The notes beneath the pieces were generated by a model that had not been told where the DNA came from, ran no database searches, and worked only from the letters and a program-made list of their open reading frames with translations. This document shows, piece after piece, positions 2,663 to 27,724 of a DNA stretch of 28,451 bases. The first letter of the stretch is position 1; each line of letters starts with the position of its first letter. The DNA is from a virus. Where the stretch lies: IMG/VR virus record IMGVR_UViG_3300021139_000099, positions 1 to 28,451 of that record. One strand, written 5' to 3'. The translations under genes were made by a program, and so were the position numbers.

Positions 2663-2979
2663 CCTGGTATGACTTTGCTTTGGCGGTGTACATCATCGTT
2701 ACTTTTTTGCTCTACTGCCGATTCCGCTACTTTCTCGAGAATGATTTCTACTATCTCGAGTCCAAGGGCGTTCAGATCCCCCCGGCGAAGCGGCTCGAAC
2801 TGCACTTCATGTGCACCTGGGAAGCCGTGCGTTGGCCATGGGGCATTTGGATTGACGGCATCGCCGCTCTCACCGAAAAGTTGAAGTACGAAGACCCCTA
2901 CACCGACGCCGATTCCGCCCCAGCCGATGGCTACCTTGGCGAAGACGACGAGTCCGACGAAATCTTTGGTACGTTTTAA
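2659..2979 (+). CDS. hypothetical protein with N-terminal membrane segment
   Basis: Starting at GTG 2659, which overlaps the previous stop as GTGA, this encodes 106 aa. A GGAGG motif at 2645-2649 sits 9 nt upstream and decides the start over the ATG at 2629. Residues about 5-22 are hydrophobic (around ALAVYIIVTFLLY) and predict one membrane helix. A Trp- and Tyr-rich middle part follows, then a strongly acidic tail (DADSAPADGYLGEDDESDE). Membrane association with a cytoplasmic acidic tail is inferred. No family is recognised. The end overlaps the next start as TAATG. Confidence 0.7.
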   Translation: MTWYDFALAVYIIVTFLLYCRFRYFLENDFYYLESKGVQIPPAKRLELHFMCTWEAVRWPWGIWIDGIAALTEKLKYEDPYTDADSAPADGYLGEDDESDEIFGTF

Positions 2980-3341
2980 TGGGTCGCCGTGTTGGCGTGA
3001 CGGGTGGTCGTAGCAATTACGACTACATTCACATCCACCGAGTGCTGAAGGAGATCCTGGAGCCGGGTGACATTCTTGTCCACGGTGGAGCCAGCGGCGT
3101 TGATTCGGTATCGGCCCAAACCGCCGTGTACCTCGGCAACGCGGTGGAACAGCACAAGGCTAACTGGGCCAAGCACGGCAAATCGGCGGGCGGCCTTCGC
3201 AACCAAAAAATGGTTGACACGGGGCCAGACTTTGTGGTACAGTTTGCAGGAGGGACCGGGACGGCCGACATGGTCAAGCGGTGCAAGGCGGCAGGGGTAA
3301 GAGTTATCCACGCCGACGTCACAACAGGAGAGACACAGTGA
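2979..3341 (+). CDS. SLOG/YspA-like (DUF2493-type) Rossmannoid protein
   Basis: This 120-aa protein shows the hallmarks of the YspA/DUF2493 branch of the SLOG superfamily. These are VTGGR near the N-terminus with a following Asp, LVHGGASGVDSV at residues about 33-44, RNQKMVD at about 75-81, and FAGGTGTADMV at about 88-98. SLOG domains are related to DprA and LOG enzymes and are thought to bind nucleotides or nucleotide-derived ligands. The length matches a stand-alone domain. The TAATG junction and the GTGA overlap with the next gene place it in one coupled cluster with a nucleotide-acting fusion enzyme. Nucleotide sensing or processing is therefore likely; the substrate is unknown. Confidence 0.8.
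   Translation: MGRRVGVTGGRSNYDYIHIHRVLKEILEPGDILVHGGASGVDSVSAQTAVYLGNAVEQHKANWAKHGKSAGGLRNQKMVDTGPDFVVQFAGGTGTADMVKRCKAAGVRVIHADVTTGETQ
3214..3243 (+). promoter_or_regulatory. candidate internal promoter
   Basis: TTGACA (3214-3219), an 18-nt spacer ending in TGTGG, and TACAGT (3238-3243) lie inside the SLOG gene, about 95 nt before the DUF4406-kinase start. The TGn extension matches the other promoters here. However, the bases also encode conserved SLOG residues, so chance is a real possibility. Confidence 0.35.
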
Positions 3342-4309
3342 GCCAGGGAACTGTTTATGTCGCAGGACCAATGCGCGGATACGACAAGTGGAACTTCCCA
3401 GCGTTCGACGCAAACTCCGATTGGTTGCGCACCCTTGGCTGGACGGTAATTTCCCCCGCCGAGATCGACCGCGAGATCGGGTTCGACGGGAACAACGCGG
3501 AGGTTGTTTTCACGGAAGCCGACTTCCACGAAGCGATGAAGCGCGACTACGCCGCCCTCCTCCGGTGCGACGCCATCGCTTTCCTGCCTGGGTGGGAGAA
3601 GTCAGCCGGCGCCAAGTTGGAGCGAGAGTTCGGCATCAAGTTGGGGCTCGACTTCTACCGAGTCGACGAGTCCACGGGTCTGTTCCAGAAGGAAGTCCTG
3701 GTCGGCATTACCGGCTTTGCACGCTCTGGCAAAGACACCCTAGCCGCGCAGATGGTGGAAAAGTTGGGTTTTCAGCGAGGTAGTTTTGCAGACACCCTCC
3801 GCAACGTCCTATACGCTCTTAACCCGGTAATCGGGCTCGACGCAACGGGCGGCTCGACGGCTTTCCCACGTTTTGGAACCGCTGGAACGGCGCCGGTCTT
3901 TCTTTCCGTCAAGGATGTCGTCGACGAAATCGGCTGGGAGGCCGCCAAGGACGAGCAACCAGTCATCCGGGAGTACCTACAGCGCCTTGGCACCGAAGGC
4001 GGCCGCACACATATTAACGACTCCGTATGGGTTGACGCTGTTCTTAACAAGCCCCACGCAGCGCGACTGGTAATTCCGGACGTTCGCTTTCCCAACGAGG
4101 CAGAGGCCATCAAGAAGCGCGGAGGAATCATTGTCCGCATCCATCGTGAGGGCTACTTCCCCGTCAACGCGCACGCGAGCGAAACGGCTTACTCGGACCA
4201 GGATTTCGTCCTCGACAATGACGGAACACCCGAAGATCTCCTCACTCAGTTCGCAGCCGTGACCGGTTTGTTCCAAAACGAATTGTTCGTGCGTAGGCTT
4301 ATTTTGTGA
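3338..4309 (+). CDS. DUF4406 (deoxyribosyltransferase-like)-deoxynucleotide monophosphate kinase fusion
   Basis: This 323-aa protein appears to join two enzymes. Residues 1-115 match the DUF4406/nucleoside 2-deoxyribosyltransferase-like fold: VYVAGPMRG at the N-terminus, a central Asp-rich strand (CDAIAFLPGW) and SAGAKLERE, with the Glu in the place of the family's catalytic residue. Residues from about 120 match phage dNMP kinases: P-loop GFARSGKDT (about 126-134), then GSFADTLRNVLYALNP and a late PDVRFPNEAEAIKK. Phage dNMP kinases supply dNTP precursors. The N-domain suggests base or sugar exchange or hydrolysis on nucleotides. GTG 3338 overlaps the previous stop and has AGGAG upstream. Confidence 0.82.
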   Translation: MSQGTVYVAGPMRGYDKWNFPAFDANSDWLRTLGWTVISPAEIDREIGFDGNNAEVVFTEADFHEAMKRDYAALLRCDAIAFLPGWEKSAGAKLEREFGIKLGLDFYRVDESTGLFQKEVLVGITGFARSGKDTLAAQMVEKLGFQRGSFADTLRNVLYALNPVIGLDATGGSTAFPRFGTAGTAPVFLSVKDVVDEIGWEAAKDEQPVIREYLQRLGTEGGRTHINDSVWVDAVLNKPHAARLVIPDVRFPNEAEAIKKRGGIIVRIHREGYFPVNAHASETAYSDQDFVLDNDGTPEDLLTQFAAVTGLFQNELFVRRLIL

Positions 4310-4422: not shown

Positions 4423-4574
4423 AACGCAGGAAGAAGAAGCCAATCCCAATGATTAGGCTCGGTAATGAGATCAAACTTGGGGGGCGCCTGCTCGAGGTCG
4501 GCTACATCAATACCTGCCAAATGGCCGACGGAACCCTAGAGGTTTCCTGGACGGCGTTTGAAAAAAATGAGTAA
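4419..4574 (+). CDS. small basic hypothetical protein
   Basis: This 51-aa protein starts at ATG 4419, within the previous stop (ATGA), with a GGAG ribosome site 7 nt upstream. The N-terminus is strongly basic (MKRRKKKPIPM). The rest is compact and beta-like (RLGNEIKLGGRLLEVGYI, then GTLEVSWTAFE), resembling a small SH3-like or nucleic-acid-binding fold, although no family is recognised. Its 3' end overlaps the endonuclease start by eight bases (ATGAGTAA), implying co-translation. Association with the adjacent nuclease is a reasonable guess. Confidence 0.65.
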   Translation: MKRRKKKPIPMIRLGNEIKLGGRLLEVGYINTCQMADGTLEVSWTAFEKNE

Positions 4575-4920
4575 GTCGCGCGCCAAGGGAACTAAGTTCG
4601 AATCAGAGGTCGTGGCGTATCTACGAGAGAACGGCTTCCCTGATGCCGAGAGAACTGGCAGCGCCGACTTTGGCGGCGGTGACATCAAAGGGACCCCGTT
4701 TGCAATCGAATGCAAGAATCAGCAAGCCATGGCTCTGGCGTCATGGGTTGACCAGTCCAGGGAGACTGGGCGCAGGATAGCCAAGTTTCCGTTCCTGGTC
4801 CACAAGAGAGTTCGCAAACCAATCAAGAACGCATATGTGACCCTAGAGTTGCAAGACCTCGTGTGGTTCGCTCGTAACGCCGGCTCGTTGAGCAAAGGAT
4901 CTTTGCCACCGTACCCTTGA
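4567..4920 (+). CDS. Hjc-like PD-(D/E)xK endonuclease (Holliday junction resolvase family)
   Basis: This 117-aa protein fits the archaeal-type Holliday junction resolvase / PD-(D/E)xK fold. It has KGTKFESEVVAYLRENGF with the N-terminal Glu, then RTGSADFGGGDIKG with the catalytic Asp, then FAIECKNQ with the ExK pair, and a downstream Gln/Trp helix. The length is normal for the family. In phages such enzymes cut branched DNA before packaging or act in recombination. ATG 4567 is chosen over the upstream TTG 4558 because it overlaps the previous stop and begins the conserved basic segment. The last codons overlap the -35 of the next promoter (TTGACA at 4917). Confidence 0.8.
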   Translation: MSKSRAKGTKFESEVVAYLRENGFPDAERTGSADFGGGDIKGTPFAIECKNQQAMALASWVDQSRETGRRIAKFPFLVHKRVRKPIKNAYVTLELQDLVWFARNAGSLSKGSLPPYP

Positions 4921-18980: not shown

Positions 18981-21900
18981 ATGGCACCAGACGAAATCAT
19001 CATACCAGTAAGTACCCCCGGTATGTCCGAAGCGGCCGACCTTGCCAACAAGGGCGCCGACGCTTTTACTAACCTCGGCGAGGGCGCCGATAAGGCTGCC
19101 GCTGGCGTCGACACCTCTACGGCCGCGCTGAAGGAAAACACCAAAGCCGCCAAGATGAACCAGGCGGCCATCGATGCCCTTCAGACCGCCCAGAGTGAGT
19201 CGACCAAGTCGCGAGAAGGCTCGACAAAGTCTGTCGACGGCGAGAGCACCACCCTTGCCGACAACACAAAGTTGACCGAGCAGAACGCTGCGGCAAAGGA
19301 CGCCGCGACCATTGCCACCGAGCGATTCGCCGCGCGCGTTGTCGACTCGCAAGTTGCCATTGCCATGGCCAATGCGAACTACTCGAAGACGTACACAGCG
19401 CTGACCCGCATGGAGTCGGTCGGAACCCCCGCCATCATGAAGGCCGCCACCTGGACTGCCCTCGGTATCGGCGGCGTGGCGTACGAGTCTGTCAAGCAGT
19501 ACATGAACCTCAATAAGTCGTTGATGCAAACCATCACGCAGGCTGGCGTCTCGCCAAACCGCATGGGCTTCTTGACCCAAATGGACCTCAACGTCGCCAA
19601 GCAGACCGGTCAAAGCATTTCCGGCGTGGCCGACATGATCTACCGAGTCGCGTCTGGTACGGCGTCTTGGAACCAAGGCCTCGGGGCAACCAACAAACAA
19701 CTTCAGGGAGTTGTCAGCAACGTTGCCAAGTTGAACGTCCTTGGTGGGGTCCCTGCCGGCGCCGCTTCTGAGCAGTCTGCCCGAGTAGTCGCCGCCCTTC
19801 TGAACGCGAACCTCCCCGGTGTCGGCAACGACCCCAACAAAGCCGGTGCGCTCATCAACGCCACCGTTGGTGCGGGTGACATCCGCCAGGGCGAACTCAT
19901 TTCCTCGGTCGGCCGAGGTCTTCTTGCGGCCGCTCAGGCTAACGGTGCCACTGCCAAAGACGCCATGGCGTGGATCGACCTTTTAACCACGTTGGGTGCC
20001 ACTGGCTCCATCGCCGGTACCCGAGTCACCACTGGTCTGACCCTCCTTTCTGCCAACACCAAGCAGGGCGCCATGGCCATGGGAATGGTGGGCATTAAGC
20101 CGGGCGAAGTCCAGGAGATCGTCGCGCACCAGGGCATCGCCGCTGCCGCCACGTTCCTCAACAACCAAATCGCTCAGTTCAACCCCATCGACAATTACCC
20201 CAAGGTCGGTAAGGGTAGGGGGCGCCAGGGTGCAATCAATGAGTTGCAATCGTGGGGTGTCAACAATATTTCTTCCCAGTTGATTAGCGACTGGTCGTCG
20301 GGCGTTCTTCGGGACCCCAAGACCAAGCAGCAACAGGACGAACTTCGCCAGATCCGTACACTCATTCTGACCAAGGCTTTTGGTGGAGCCAAGCAGTACG
20401 TAACGGTGGCAACCCTGCTCAACAACGTGGGGAGGTACGTCGGGATCAACAACGCCATTGGACGCAACGACACTCAGGCCGTCTACCAGGCTGCCGTTGC
20501 TCGAGCCGAGAACACCCCTTCCGTTGTTTTCCACAAAACTCTCATCGGCATCCAGGCCGACTTGATCCAGGTGGGCAAGGAGTTGACTCCGGTCGCCACG
20601 GAGGCTGCGCGCGGTCTTCTCTTTTTAACCAACACACTCACGCACTTCAAAGCCATCCTCGTTCCGGTGGGCTTGACCCTGGCATACATTCTTGGAGCAG
20701 CCGGCCTTTCAAAGGCTGCTTCGATTAGCAAGGGCGCCATCCGCATGTTTGGCGCCGGCAACGCCCTTGGTAGCAAGGTGTACGGTGGCTTGGGCCGCGT
20801 CCTTGGCGGTGAAAAGAATGCCGTCGGTCGTTTCTTCGGCAACATGGGCGCTTCGTTGGACATGCCCAACAGCGCGTACAACATCGGTCGCGGCACCGCC
20901 GAAAAGAAACTCGCCGACGACCTCGCCATGTCCGGCGTCAAGATCAACCAGGGTGGCGACAAGATTTTAACCGCCGCCCGAATCATGTCGGGCGAGTCGG
21001 CTTCAGGCGGAGGTTCCGGTGGCGGAGGCGGGCGCCGCAGTGCGTCCTCCTTGGAAAAGCAACTCATCAAAGACGCAGAAAACTCTGGCAACCTTTCCGA
21101 AGAAGAGAAGCGCGTCCTTCAGTACCACATGAGCGAAGGCAAGTTGTTGTCCAAGACGGGCATCCGCAACGCTCTTGGCCTGGGGCGTGGAGTTGCCAAC
21201 GGCGACACCGCAAAAGTCGAAGGAATCTTCAGCAAGTTGTCCGGCATGCAAAATGCTGGGCGCGATCTGACCACGGTTGCCAAAATCGGCATGACCGGTG
21301 GGGCGGAAGACCTGGCTGGTGCCATCGGCGGTAGCGCCGTTGTGGGCGCCGCGGAATCTGCTGGTGGCGGCATCCTGGCCACACTTGGCGGAATGGGTGC
21401 GGGCGACATCCTGGGTGGAGCGCTCGGAATGGCCGGTGGACCGGTCGGAATGATTTTGATGAGCACGCTGGCTGCGACGCTTGGGCCTGCGATCTTCAAG
21501 GGTCTCGGCTCGCTCTTCGCTGGACACGCCGCCACTTCGATCTACACGCCTAAGCACATTCTTACCTCAGAGAGCGCCGTCAAGTCCAAGATTCAGCAAT
21601 TGCGGGCCAACTTGGCTGCCCTGTACGTCAAAAACGGCGGCCTCCCTACGGGCGCGGACTTCGCCAAGATCAACGACATCCAGAGCCGACTCGGCGCCCT
21701 TGGGGCACTCGATGTAGAACTGGCGATGCACCCTGCCAAAGTCTTCAACCCCATCTACGCAATGTGGAAAAACAAGAAGTACGCTGGTGCCTACAAGGAT
21801 CTTCAGGCCTACTCAAAGGGTGGGTACATTGTGACGCCCGGCCCCTTCGGGCCAACCGCCAACCGGGCAATCCTGACTTCCCTGTACAATGAATTTGCCG

Positions 21901-22613
21901 CTTCAAACGCCCCGGCCGCCGACAAGGCGCACCTGCACGCAGCGCTGATGGCATCAAACCTCTGGAGCCCCGGTGCTCTCGTCAAGGGGTCCATCAATCC
22001 CAGCACTGCCATGGCTACTTTCAACTCTATCATTGGCAAGAACGGCTACCAGTGGGTGAAGGATCAAATGAACTCCCCAGCGGGTCAGGCGTACATGATG
22101 GCGCAACACCGCGATGAAGTCATCTCCGGGTGGGCCAGGCAAGACCTTAAGTCGCAAATCCACGACTTCGGCCAAAAGAGCCTAGTGGGTAACCTTTCCA
22201 GTTTCAACCGCAACCGTGCCTTTGCTCGATACAACACTTTGTCGCAGGACGTCCTTCACATGAAGGAACTGCAAAAGTACGACCTTGCTCAGGCTGCACT
22301 TTACGGCGTCCACAGTGGCGGTGGAAAAGTGTACACGTCCGACGCAGCCCAACTGTCCAAGCGCATCGACCTTTTCGAAAAGGGGCTGCACACGCTCACC
22401 GGGAGGGGGATGCTCTCGGAGTCGGACATTCAGGACTTGGCAAAGAACATCGCAGCCTACAACAAGAAGGCGTGGCAGGAATTGGGAATGACGCAAAGCG
22501 ACTTCCAGATGGCCATGGTCGCGGCGATGAACTCAAGCAGTGGTGGCCTCGCCGCCGCAGTGACGCGCGGGTACAAGAACCTCAGCGCGCGCGGAAATGT
22601 ACCGGTAGGATAA
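18981..22613 (+). CDS. tape measure protein
   Basis: This 1210-aa protein is the longest in the window and follows the chaperone, as expected for the tape measure that sets tail length. Residues 1-140 are an Ala/Thr/Lys-rich helical stretch. Residues about 170-400 resemble the TP901-type core (SLMQTITQAGVSPNRMGF, then GLLAAAQANGATAKDAMAW and ATGSIAGTRVTTGLTLL). Hydrophobic segments occur at about 560-580 (ILVPVGLTLAYILGAAGL) and about 800-840 (Gly/Ala-rich, MILMSTLAATLGPAIF), fitting membrane insertion during ejection. A Gly-rich linker lies near residues 672-682. The C-terminal 350 residues are helical. GGGGGG before ATG 18981 is the ribosome site. Confidence 0.92.
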   Translation: MAPDEIIIPVSTPGMSEAADLANKGADAFTNLGEGADKAAAGVDTSTAALKENTKAAKMNQAAIDALQTAQSESTKSREGSTKSVDGESTTLADNTKLTEQNAAAKDAATIATERFAARVVDSQVAIAMANANYSKTYTALTRMESVGTPAIMKAATWTALGIGGVAYESVKQYMNLNKSLMQTITQAGVSPNRMGFLTQMDLNVAKQTGQSISGVADMIYRVASGTASWNQGLGATNKQLQGVVSNVAKLNVLGGVPAGAASEQSARVVAALLNANLPGVGNDPNKAGALINATVGAGDIRQGELISSVGRGLLAAAQANGATAKDAMAWIDLLTTLGATGSIAGTRVTTGLTLLSANTKQGAMAMGMVGIKPGEVQEIVAHQGIAAAATFLNNQIAQFNPIDNYPKVGKGRGRQGAINELQSWGVNNISSQLISDWSSGVLRDPKTKQQQDELRQIRTLILTKAFGGAKQYVTVATLLNNVGRYVGINNAIGRNDTQAVYQAAVARAENTPSVVFHKTLIGIQADLIQVGKELTPVATEAARGLLFLTNTLTHFKAILVPVGLTLAYILGAAGLSKAASISKGAIRMFGAGNALGSKVYGGLGRVLGGEKNAVGRFFGNMGASLDMPNSAYNIGRGTAEKKLADDLAMSGVKINQGGDKILTAARIMSGESASGGGSGGGGGRRSASSLEKQLIKDAENSGNLSEEEKRVLQYHMSEGKLLSKTGIRNALGLGRGVANGDTAKVEGIFSKLSGMQNAGRDLTTVAKIGMTGGAEDLAGAIGGSAVVGAAESAGGGILATLGGMGAGDILGGALGMAGGPVGMILMSTLAATLGPAIFKGLGSLFAGHAATSIYTPKHILTSESAVKSKIQQLRANLAALYVKNGGLPTGADFAKINDIQSRLGALGALDVELAMHPAKVFNPIYAMWKNKKYAGAYKDLQAYSKGGYIVTPGPFGPTANRAILTSLYNEFAASNAPAADKAHLHAALMASNLWSPGALVKGSINPSTAMATFNSIIGKNGYQWVKDQMNSPAGQAYMMAQHRDEVISGWARQDLKSQIHDFGQKSLVGNLSSFNRNRAFARYNTLSQDVLHMKELQKYDLAQAALYGVHSGGGKVYTSDAAQLSKRIDLFEKGLHTLTGRGMLSESDIQDLAKNIAAYNKKAWQELGMTQSDFQMAMVAAMNSSSGGLAAAVTRGYKNLSARGNVPVG

Positions 22614-23355: not shown

Positions 23356-24392
23356 TGGCCACTCCTGGATTCTCACCGAATGATCTAAAGAAACTGTCTC
23401 TTTACGATTATGAAACCAACAAAACAACCCCGTTGCCTTTTAACTTTTCACAGGCAAATACTGGCGTTATTTTGCAATTAACTAACACGGGTGCCTCCAC
23501 AGTAACGCTGCAATTCACCGACCCAAAACGTCTGATCTTGCGCAACATGGTAGAGCAGGGTGTTGCCTTGAACATTGGTGGAATCAAATACGTCTTTGTC
23601 CAGTTGACAAAAGCGTCCGACCAACTGCAAATGGTTTTCGAATCCGAAACGATCTACCGGCTCAACAACCAGACCGGCGCAACGCCAGCAACCACGGGCA
23701 CCAACGTAACCCCATTCGTCAAAAGCCTGGTGTCGGCTATCAGCACGGCCAAGAACCCCGTCAAGTTTGTGGCGCCAGACTACGCGTCGACATGGCACCT
23801 TCTGGCCGAGGGTGCTCCTACCCCCATCGGCTTATCTCGAGGCACGACCACCGACCCGTACGAGAACTCGTGGACGGCTATCACGCGCATCGCTTCCAGC
23901 ATCGGATGGCGAGTGTGGGAGTACAACAACACCGTCTTCTTCGGCCCCGACGAATACTGGCTCGGGTTGATGACCAAGAATGCCAAGGGGGCCGCAGTGC
24001 CGCCCATCAACCTGGGCTTGAACGCGGTCAACCCCATTCCCGTTCTGAAGGAATTCACGCGAACGGTGCAATTGATCGACTTCGACTGGGACGTGGGAAA
24101 GCCATTCGGTACCTGCACTGTCACATGCACGCTGGACAACTTCAACTACCTGCCTGGAGAGGTCGTCATTCTTGAAGGCGTCGGCCCCGCTAGCGGCGCA
24201 TGGCTTGTCTCGGGAATTCAACGCAACGGGTACGAACCCCAAGCAACGATGACTCTGCAAGTTCCCATGCCGTTCGCCCAAGTCTTTGACCCCACGTCCC
24301 TTCCCTTGCACGATACAGGGTTTCCTCTAACGCTCAAGTCTGGGTCTCTAGTCAACATTCCCATGTCCGTCCTTTCTACGATTGGTCTTTAA
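23355..24392 (+). CDS. baseplate hub protein (gp27/XkdQ-like)
   Basis: This 345-aa protein follows the LysM protein and precedes the spike, the usual hub position. It has the pattern of hub proteins: N-terminal beta strands (ANTGVILQLTNTGASTVTLQF), LNIGGIKYVFVQLTKASDQLQMVFESETIYRLNN read as two strands and a Tyr/Arg loop, a central SWTAITRIASSIGWRVWEYNN helix, and a C-terminal barrel with PGEVVILEGVGPASGAWLVSGIQR. In the family this protein forms a trimer that joins the tube to the spike. The sequence is AT-richer at its 5' end than its neighbours. It overlaps the next gene by one base (TAATG). Confidence 0.78.
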   Translation: MATPGFSPNDLKKLSLYDYETNKTTPLPFNFSQANTGVILQLTNTGASTVTLQFTDPKRLILRNMVEQGVALNIGGIKYVFVQLTKASDQLQMVFESETIYRLNNQTGATPATTGTNVTPFVKSLVSAISTAKNPVKFVAPDYASTWHLLAEGAPTPIGLSRGTTTDPYENSWTAITRIASSIGWRVWEYNNTVFFGPDEYWLGLMTKNAKGAAVPPINLGLNAVNPIPVLKEFTRTVQLIDFDWDVGKPFGTCTVTCTLDNFNYLPGEVVILEGVGPASGAWLVSGIQRNGYEPQATMTLQVPMPFAQVFDPTSLPLHDTGFPLTLKSGSLVNIPMSVLSTIGL

Positions 24393-27300
24393 TGTCCCGT
24401 TCTCCTGACGTCAACGTTCAGAACCAACAGAACGCGCGAGTAATGGGCCACGTTAAGGCAACGGTGCCTCAGAAGTCTGGCGCTTACTACGGCAGCATTG
24501 TCGACACGCACGTCACCAACCCTGGCATTCCTTCGGGACAAGCGCGGTTCAAGATTCCGGCGTTCGGTAACTCGGAAATTTGGGGTCCCTCCCCGCTGCC
24601 CGGCGGCAACATTCCGACCAATGGGTCGACCGTCATCATCGGTTTCAACGATGGTGGTACGCCGTTCATCTTTGCTTGCATCGGGCCGACAACTCACTGG
24701 CTGACCGGAACGACCGCTCCCGCTTCGACGCAGGGAGTCGTGGGCGACTACTACTTTAACATGGCCTCGTTGCTGATGTACGGCCCCAAAACAACCGGCG
24801 GGTGGGGCTCCGGCTACCCCATCGGCGGTGGCTCGGGTGGAATCACGCAATCCACTGGCGACGTCACCATGGGTCCCGGAACCGGCTCTCAGGCGGCGAC
24901 ACTCCAAGCCACGTCAAACGTGGAGAGCATCATCTCTGGCAACAGTAGCGTTCTTGCGGCCGCGTCCGCCGCTTCGTCCGCCCAGTCAACAGCCAATGCT
25001 GCGCTTCCAAAGGCCGGTGGGACCATGTCCGGGGCAATTGCAATGGGTGGCTACAAGATTACGGGCCTTGCCGATGGTTCCTCTTCTACGGATGCGGCAA
25101 CGGTCGAGCAACTGCCTTTTTTGAACGCTGCTCTCTACGGAGTCTCAACCGCTTCGTCCGACAACACTTCCGCGATCAACTCATGGCTGGCCGCGTGCAA
25201 CTCCACGGGTCGGGAGGGATTCCTTGACGCTGGAACATACCAGTTCACAGGGCAAATCCAACTCCAATCCAACGTCATGATTCGTGGTGCGTCGGCTGGT
25301 GGATACTCACCGGCTCACGGGTCGCGCCTCAAGTACACCGGCACGGGCTTAGGCTCCACGACGACCTCCGGCATGGCGTTGGCCGGCGGCACGTCAGTCG
25401 CGGTGAATACCGGAACGCTGGCCGCTGGTTCGGTCGGCTCCCCCTTGGTCGGAACCATCGAAACCACGGGTGGCAACCAGTCCATCACCTACTACGTTTC
25501 CGGTGGCACTCTCTACCTGACCACGGGCACGTTCATCGCCAACGTCGCTAGTGGGGCGCAGGTATGGAACAAGGTGTTCAACGGCAGTTCCATTGTCGGA
25601 TTCACGTCGTATGACATTGACTACGGCTACTCAGACGGCTCGTTTGCTGGAACCCTGATTGACATTTCCGGCCAATCACTGTCTTCGGGCATTGTCTCCC
25701 ACGTTCGTTTCCACGGTGGGGTCATCGGTGGGTGGAACTCCAACACCACGGCCTACCTTGTTCGCTGCAACAATTCGTATTCCGTTGGATTCTTTGACAT
25801 TGATTTTGTCTACGGCTACACCGCTATTGAAGGTGCCTCCTCCACCTCTGGAACGACAAGCATCAACTACAACTACACCAATGGCCTTGTTGTGGACAGT
25901 TGCTACTTCCAGGAGTTTTCCGGCCCTACCATCCACAATCCCGGTGAGGGCGCTCTCATAACTGGCGCGGTGTCGGAGCCCACTCCCTCGTTGGTCGCAA
26001 AGTTCATTGTTGCCGACGCGGACGCTCCCGGGTTTAGTTCGTCAGCCCCTTTGAACAACGCTTGCACCTTGGTGGGTGGCTGGCTCGGTGACGCCACTTC
26101 TGGATCTTGGATCTCTTGGCAGGGCGGTTCGATCACTTCAGTTGGAGTTCAATACGGTTATCGAGCAACGGCCATCACTCTGACTGGCAACGCTAACTCC
26201 GTGTCGTTTCTCGGTGGCACGATTCAGAACACCGTGGGCGCCGGGATAGCCTTCGGCGGATACACTGTCGGATCGGTTTCCGCATCTGGGATCGACTGGT
26301 CCAACACGTCGACTCACTATAGCGGAACGTCTGGTCTGTCCGCTGGCATCTACGTAGACGCTGGCCAAACAAACATACCCGGCACTCTATCTGTCTCGTC
26401 GTTTTCTGCGTCGTCTTCAGTTACTGTTCCTTTGAATGCTGGTCCAAACAACATCGGTAACTACCCCACGGGAACGCTGGCAAACGCCCTCAACGATGCA
26501 TACTTGCTCACGGGTACTGGTGACTGGGCGGTCTTTTCTAACGCCACCCTAACGCGTGACACTACCGTGCAGTCACCATTTTCCAATGCAGGTACTTTTG
26601 GGTACGCCTTAAAGGGGACCATCACGACTTCGCCCGGTGGAACGTGGGCGAACACCAACAGCGCATCCAACAGAACGCCCGTCACCGTGGGAACCGCCTT
26701 GACGGTCATGGCCTACATGCTCGCCTCGCCAAGCAACACCATAACGAGTGGGCACAACGGCCAGTTCCGCGTCGGCTTGGCTTATTTCGACTCCAACAAC
26801 AAGTACATCTCTGCCCTCACCGCTACCGGCGCAGCGACCGACGTCAACTCATCAACGTGGACGCAGTTAACCGTCACACTGACCCCGGCGACTTCCATCG
26901 GAACCATTACGGCGGTATCGGTCACGAACTCAACAACGGTTGCATTCACCCAAACCAATACCTACACCTCTGGTCAAGCGGTCACGTTGTCCGGTTTCAC
27001 GGGTGCGCTCGCGGTCTTGAACGGGTCGTGGACGGTCCTCGCCTCTGGCCTTTCAACATCGGGCTACTCCCTGACCATTGCCAACTCATTGTCCACCGGC
27101 TCACAGTCCATCGCTGGCATGAGTCCAATCGCCACAGTAACCCCCGTGACGGCGGCGTGCTACATCCTCGGCCTCACCGGCTACAACCTGGTGGGCAATG
27201 TTTATTGGTCCTCGTGCCACTCCATCTCCACCAACCCCTCCACGGCATGGGTCGCGCCGGGGGCAGCGGCGGCTACGTTGGGTCTTTCGACCTCCGGCAT

Positions 27301-27724
27301 AACGGGTGGAGGTCAGCGTGGAACTGGTTTCGCTGCTGGCGCTGCCGGTTCGGACCTCGCGACGGTGGGGCAGGTAGTCCTTACCTCTCAGGTCACCCCC
27401 ACGGCCCTTTCAGGGGTAACCACGGTCACCGTCGCGTCCAACGCTGGCACCGTGCCGGTCACAGCAGGAACGGCCAATTTCACCAACTCGTCCGCAGCGA
27501 CAATGGCGATCACGCTCGCGACAAGCGGTGCGCTTGACGGTCAAATGATGATCGTGCGCGTCTACGACTTCTCCGCTGCGAGTCAGACAATCGGTTGGAC
27601 CAACACGGAGAACTCAACCGTGTCAGCCCCCACAACTTCCAACGGGTCCACAACGCTACCCAAAACGGTGACGTTTCAATTCAACGGGGCAACGTCTAAG
27701 TGGCGTTGCATTGCATCGGTATGA
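24392..27724 (+). CDS. spike-fibre fusion protein with beta-helix (receptor binding/depolymerase candidate)
   Basis: This 1110-aa protein is modular. Residues about 28-108 look like the gp5/gpV OB-fold of a tail spike (YYGSIVDTHVTNPGI, then IPTNGSTVIIGFNDGG). A fibre motif follows (GDYYFNMASLLMYGPKT at about 119), then an Ala/Ser coiled region and the linker GGTMSGAIAMGGYKITGLAD at about 209-228. Residues about 240-640 form a Gly/Ser/Thr-rich right-handed beta-helix starting with the pectate-lyase-like DNTSAINSWLAACNSTGR. A jelly-roll-like module lies at about 700-960. A second linker (GSDLATVGQV) and a fibre tip with DGQMMIVRVYDF follow. The role is adsorption and possibly polysaccharide cleavage. 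Confidence 0.82.
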   Translation: MSRSPDVNVQNQQNARVMGHVKATVPQKSGAYYGSIVDTHVTNPGIPSGQARFKIPAFGNSEIWGPSPLPGGNIPTNGSTVIIGFNDGGTPFIFACIGPTTHWLTGTTAPASTQGVVGDYYFNMASLLMYGPKTTGGWGSGYPIGGGSGGITQSTGDVTMGPGTGSQAATLQATSNVESIISGNSSVLAAASAASSAQSTANAALPKAGGTMSGAIAMGGYKITGLADGSSSTDAATVEQLPFLNAALYGVSTASSDNTSAINSWLAACNSTGREGFLDAGTYQFTGQIQLQSNVMIRGASAGGYSPAHGSRLKYTGTGLGSTTTSGMALAGGTSVAVNTGTLAAGSVGSPLVGTIETTGGNQSITYYVSGGTLYLTTGTFIANVASGAQVWNKVFNGSSIVGFTSYDIDYGYSDGSFAGTLIDISGQSLSSGIVSHVRFHGGVIGGWNSNTTAYLVRCNNSYSVGFFDIDFVYGYTAIEGASSTSGTTSINYNYTNGLVVDSCYFQEFSGPTIHNPGEGALITGAVSEPTPSLVAKFIVADADAPGFSSSAPLNNACTLVGGWLGDATSGSWISWQGGSITSVGVQYGYRATAITLTGNANSVSFLGGTIQNTVGAGIAFGGYTVGSVSASGIDWSNTSTHYSGTSGLSAGIYVDAGQTNIPGTLSVSSFSASSSVTVPLNAGPNNIGNYPTGTLANALNDAYLLTGTGDWAVFSNATLTRDTTVQSPFSNAGTFGYALKGTITTSPGGTWANTNSASNRTPVTVGTALTVMAYMLASPSNTITSGHNGQFRVGLAYFDSNNKYISALTATGAATDVNSSTWTQLTVTLTPATSIGTITAVSVTNSTTVAFTQTNTYTSGQAVTLSGFTGALAVLNGSWTVLASGLSTSGYSLTIANSLSTGSQSIAGMSPIATVTPVTAACYILGLTGYNLVGNVYWSSCHSISTNPSTAWVAPGAAAATLGLSTSGITGGGQRGTGFAAGAAGSDLATVGQVVLTSQVTPTALSGVTTVTVASNAGTVPVTAGTANFTNSSAATMAITLATSGALDGQMMIVRVYDFSAASQTIGWTNTENSTVSAPTTSNGSTTLPKTVTFQFNGATSKWRCIASV

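Follow-up and report, generated by a model that had tools for sequence, protein, structure and literature searches.

The N-glycosidases DNPH1/Rcl and MilB are stand-alone enzymes of the nucleoside 2-deoxyribosyltransferase (NDT) fold that carry a phosphate-binding Ser six residues ahead of the catalytic Glu. Catalysis by DNPH1 involves Y24, D80 and E104, of which Y24 selects for deoxyribose, and the phosphate is held by S98 together with S128' of the partner subunit (PMC10603095). MilB keeps the Ser (S97, with E103) and has Phe (F17) in place of the Tyr, so that ribose is preferred (PMC10603095). The phage NDT-superfamily enzyme DmtZ has a Tyr/Asn-or-Asp/Glu triad and combines the Pro of the transferases with a hydrolase-like phosphate pocket; it hydrolyses dAMP and also transfers deoxyribose 5-phosphate (dR5P) to a base (PMC12884076). 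In DmtZ–DutZ of the PurZ0 phages Ghobes and Wayne, the same activity is fused to a dNTP pyrophosphohydrolase, with a dNMP as the common intermediate (PMC12884076). An earlier note on the DNA analysed here reported a DUF4406–dNMP kinase fusion next to a SLOG/YspA-like gene and knew of no described function for the exact combination. For the fusion this holds in the literature searched, but DmtZ, DmtZ–DutZ, DNPH1 and MilB are close precedents.

The window, the whole stretch of DNA analysed, is an IMG/VR record of 28,451 bases and probably a fragment of a larger genome. It carries the following features:

2979..3341, + strand: SLOG/YAcAr (YspA-like) protein, 120 aa (PF10686 YAcAr, 31.3 bits against a cut-off of 28.2; phrog_289, E=1.4e-23)
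3338..4309, + strand: fused DUF4406 (NDT superfamily) and dNMP kinase gene, 323 aa, assigned by profile matches
3338..3655, + strand: N-terminal DUF4406 domain, with predicted catalytic Tyr7, Asp70 and Glu95, predicted phosphate-binding Ser89 and transferase-type Pro40
3692..4267, + strand: C-terminal dNMP kinase domain, with S130-G131-K132-D133 at the end of its P-loop and conserved R211, R223, W231, D248, R250, N253 and E254
4567-4920: PDDEXK nuclease gene, assigned by profile matches

Downstream come the genes of the terminase, portal, major head protein, head-tail adaptor, tail sheath and tail tube, which mark the phage as contractile-tailed. The closest relatives of its terminase are those of Arthrobacter phages, at 35% identity. 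Two big ORFs of the tail region (18981-22613, 1210 aa; 24392-27724, 1110 aa) gave no PHROG match at E 0.05, and a tRNA-Met (CAT) lies at 1730-1804 on the minus strand, against the main gene direction of the window.

Both domains of the fused protein were recovered by profile search. The DUF4406 profile PF14359 matched residues 6-104 (2.7e-18; 66.6 bits against a curated cut-off of 22) and phrog_355, a nucleoside 2-deoxyribosyltransferase, matched at 1.9e-31; the kinase part, about residues 119-312 (~195 residues), matched PF21448 DNMK (3.4e-13; 50.2 bits against a cut-off of 27.1) and the phrog_139 dNMP kinase (2.5e-45, residues 118-310). The gene starts with a GTG at 3338 that overlaps the stop of the SLOG gene by four bases (GTGA). 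The coordinates and domain calls of the earlier note were thus right, but its 342-aa ORF began at an in-frame GTG upstream (3281), and 3338 is the better start. The adjacent SLOG/YspA-like gene was likewise confirmed by the Pfam and PHROG matches. The fusion is real, because an open frame of 323 codons would arise by chance at 58% GC with a probability of only about 1e-5 and because the same architecture recurs in independent contigs, one of them intact at 313 aa; these shared fusions also rule out a sequencing or assembly chimera or a frameshift artefact.

An AlphaFold model of the fused protein, built on an alignment of 50 sequences from the window and viral contigs, reached a pLDDT of 85.4 and a pTM of 0.77; the model made without an alignment had a pLDDT of 33 and was unusable. 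In the former model the N-terminal domain (residues 2-118) is predicted to adopt the NDT fold, with a VIA Z of 13.1 to 1t1j and of 9.9 to both MilB (4ohb, with hydroxymethyl-CMP) and the 2-deoxyribosyltransferase 6evs. The C-terminal domain is predicted to have the fold of the viral dNMP kinases as seen in 1dek, the T4 gene 1 enzyme, which was its top Foldseek match (E 2.8e-6; VIA Z 13.4 over 173 residues). The window kinase and the T4 kinase share the P-loop kinase fold and the Pfam family DNMK, and differ in that the former is shorter and is fused behind an NDT domain. The best match in BFVD was A0A6J5RPH7, a 297-aa protein of an uncultured Caudovirales phage that aligns over its full length at 32% identity. 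The modelled architecture therefore appears to have been deposited already, under a name taken from the N-terminal domain alone; we found no study of the function of this protein.

The active-site residues were examined in 68 aligned DUF4406 proteins. The pattern used to find these relatives fixed Tyr7, Gly10, Pro11 and Gly14, making their invariance (Tyr7, 68/68) partly a matter of construction, and left Ser89, Pro40, Asp70 and Glu95 free. Among the free positions, Ser89 and Pro40 are invariant, Glu95 is kept in 67/68 and Asp70 in 65/68, and the Ser precedes the Glu by six residues in 67/68. Pro40 aligns with the Pro of the transferases. Position 13 is Arg in the window and in 34/68 of the family (compare R23 of MilB, a second phosphate ligand in that enzyme). 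In the kinase part, the S-G-K of the P-loop is retained in 12/12. The catalytic Glu and the P-loop are present in the window protein, where both active sites are intact. The role on free (deoxy)nucleotides suggested earlier is supported as well.

Which nucleotides these may be is indicated by Ser89. When the DUF4406 profile was compared with the PDB, MilB came out best, its Ser and Glu aligning with those of the family; the E-value is weak (0.014), and the residue spacing and the structure agree with the match. DNPH1 shares the Ser and, in addition, has Tyr at the position of Tyr7, its deoxyribose-selecting Y24; DNPH1 also uses a further Ser, contributed by the partner subunit, and both DNPH1/Rcl and MilB differ from the window protein in standing alone. 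DmtZ shares with it the phage origin, the triad and the transferase Pro. The Ser89/Tyr7 pattern and the comparison with DNPH1, MilB and DmtZ lead us to infer that the DUF4406 domain is specific for dNMPs. PHROG and database names would instead make it a classical nucleoside 2'-deoxyribosyltransferase engaged in ordinary salvage on deoxynucleosides, with the kinase following at a later step and the fusion serving co-regulation only. The fold is compatible with this reading, but it is unlikely: the nucleoside-type enzymes 8pqr and 7m5h have Asp at the position of Ser89, six residues ahead of the catalytic Glu, and this classical mark is replaced by Ser in 68/68 family members. A nucleoside kinase step to connect the two activities would also be lacking. 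We found no functional study or activity data for DUF4406 in the literature searched, and the papers that mention it are, by their titles and abstracts, not about its function.

The gene partners of DUF4406 point in the same direction. Four of the 68 non-redundant DUF4406 ORFs are fused to a dATP/dGTP diphosphohydrolase (L187, L082 and L072 among these fusions), one to a MazG-like domain (compare phrog_12019, DUF4406-MazG), and 3/68 match the Pfam dNMP kinase. DUF4406 is thus repeatedly joined to dNMP-producing (dATP/dGTP diphosphohydrolase, MazG) or dNMP-using (dNMP kinase) enzymes; in the diphosphohydrolase and MazG fusions the same N-terminal domain meets a nucleotide-pool enzyme that makes dNMPs, whereas its partner in the window phosphorylates them. 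Fusion to DUF6378 was found in 8/68 ORFs, including L102, L115, L119, L148 and L156; PHROGs names the DUF6378 part phosphofructokinase, a name that looks doubtful.

Linkage between separate genes was also observed. In seven loci (L087, L125, L129, L132, L154, L157 and L158) a kinase is the second gene downstream of DUF4406 on the same strand. A kinase was fused or second downstream in 7/62 non-redundant DUF4406 loci; the corresponding count for SLOG loci, taking kinases no more than 1 kb away, was 0/54 (Fisher p=0.014). This close-linkage criterion was chosen after the loci had been inspected; counted anywhere in the locus, kinases occurred in 7/62 DUF4406 versus 3/54 SLOG loci, with no significant enrichment (p=0.33). 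The Arthrobacter phages SWEP2 and Liebe have DUF4406 and dNMP kinase genes about 2 kb apart, and both kinases match the kinase profile, that of Liebe being annotated as adenylate kinase. In the seven loci listed above, a conserved gene separates DUF4406 from the kinase; by eye, as read in L087, L125, L129, L154 and L157, it resembles a permuted papain-fold (YiiX-like) protein.

As the N-terminal domain is fused to both dNMP-making and dNMP-using enzymes, hydrolysis or exchange at the dNMP level is the simplest reading. We therefore propose, with a probability of roughly 60%, that the 323-aa protein is a bifunctional dNMP-editing enzyme that combines hydrolysis or base exchange with phosphorylation in the phage's own dNTP supply. 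Glu95 of the DUF4406 domain would attack C1' of a dNMP with the assistance of Tyr7 and Asp70, and the base would depart to leave a covalent deoxyribose-5-phosphate enzyme. Resolution of this intermediate by water would remove an unwanted dNMP, and its resolution by another base would turn one dNMP into another, a form of base salvage. The T4-type kinase would then convert the remaining or new dNMP to the dNDP. A single molecule could in this way link the destruction or remaking of dNMPs to commitment to DNA synthesis.

A related reading assigns the exchange reaction to DNA modification: by base exchange, the NDT domain would attach a non-canonical base to deoxyribose 5-phosphate, the kinase would charge the product, and the virion DNA would be modified as in the DmtZ/2-aminoadenine case. 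The invariant transferase-type Pro40 fits this reading, as does the precedent of DmtZ, which transfers to a non-canonical base and is fused to DutZ (PMC12884076). DmtZ–DutZ, compared here by its published description, has a dNTP pyrophosphohydrolase where the window protein has a dNMP kinase, and it belongs to PurZ0 phages. No PurZ (PF00709) match was found in the window or in 13 other contigs, including fusion contigs of 95.9 and 132.6 kb, which may be incomplete. Nor was a thymidylate synthase found in the window or these two larger contigs, where a lone ThyX match was sub-threshold and full of stops. A Z-genome phage and a thymidylate-synthase-based modification are thus unsupported by these contigs, and the modification route suggested earlier gained no positive evidence. 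A modified base could arise by another route, and we regard modified virion DNA as improbable. Similarly doubtful is the more specific version in which DUF4406 places a non-canonical or salvaged base on a dNMP and hands it to the fused kinase to give an unusual dNDP for phage DNA.

The fusion is not confined to the window. DUF4406 domains and dNMP kinases mostly occur as proteins of their own, which speaks against the proposed function. Among the 50,697 phage records of INPHARED the window N-terminal domain alone has matches in 598, but no single place matches 80% of the window fusion protein or of the L031 fusion. Further IMG/VR contigs hold the fusion in the same order: L080 (intact, 313 aa), L079 (cut by the contig end) and L139/L144. 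In the DUF4406 tree the window groups with L079, L080 and the split L005/L071 (support 99/96), and L139 falls elsewhere; in the kinase tree L144, of the same phage type as L139, is also apart from the window clade. L031/L032 have the reverse order: the dNMP kinase comes first, and after it an NDT domain resembling PF05014 (E 3e-5, below Pfam's own cut-off), in which Ser again stands six residues ahead of Glu:

L031:4887-5969: reverse-order fusion

On these sequences, the window clade, L139 in other NDT and kinase clades, and the reverse-order L031 suggest that an NDT-type domain and a dNMP kinase were probably fused on at least three separate occasions. A scan of bacterial genome contigs with narrow patterns returned no confirmed relative of the fusion.

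L071 presents a variant of the window arrangement. At L071:4992-6576, a DUF4406 ORF is followed by an endonuclease VII-type HNH gene and then by a kinase gene that has a separate start; a tRNA lies directly ahead, at 4728-4801. The DUF4406 ORF still contains the linker, together with the first strand of the kinase (...YRVDADKEYLEQELIIGL), and L071 is nested within the fused clade. Most simply, L071 would be a fused gene split by the endonuclease gene, possibly a homing-type insertion; a group I intron behind the split received no support from Rfam.

The SLOG gene behaves differently. Its closest relative found is 52% identical and sits in L080, 6.3 kb away from the fusion there, and the contigs of L079 and L071, both short, yielded no orthologue. 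These two facts probably place SLOG outside any conserved module, and the three-part nucleotide module of SLOG, DUF4406 and kinase proposed earlier was rejected. The window SLOG protein has matches in 800 INPHARED records, and its relatives in cultured phages often sit amid replication genes (sliding clamp, DNA polymerase, helicase). It is probably a neighbour with its own role, unrelated to the function of the fusion. A shared function in counter-defence, in which SLOG, NDT and kinase would act on a nucleotide immune signal, by binding or destroying it, or restore dNTPs depleted by host defence, could draw on the overlap of the two genes and on the prediction that YAcAr SLOG domains work with NAD+ and generate signals of the ADP-ribose type (PMC7824862). 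We consider it very improbable: SLOG is not conserved beside the fusion, the putative dNMP pocket does not point to a cyclic or ADP-ribose ligand, and neither protein was convincingly matched in PADLOC, where the best E was 0.011 and the model was that of an unrelated restriction enzyme. The earlier suggestion that the set removes a host-defence nucleotide signal is unsupported.

The fusion is rare but convergent, and both of its component enzyme families were already known. DUF4406 is common in phages, and annotations mostly call it a nucleoside deoxyribosyltransferase or hydrolase. Both its residues and the enzymes to which it is fused speak for dNMPs as its substrate, and simple assays could test this prediction. 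If true, dNMP hydrolysis or base exchange, recently described for DmtZ in Z-genome phages, would be a widespread form of pool editing in phages with apparently ordinary DNA.
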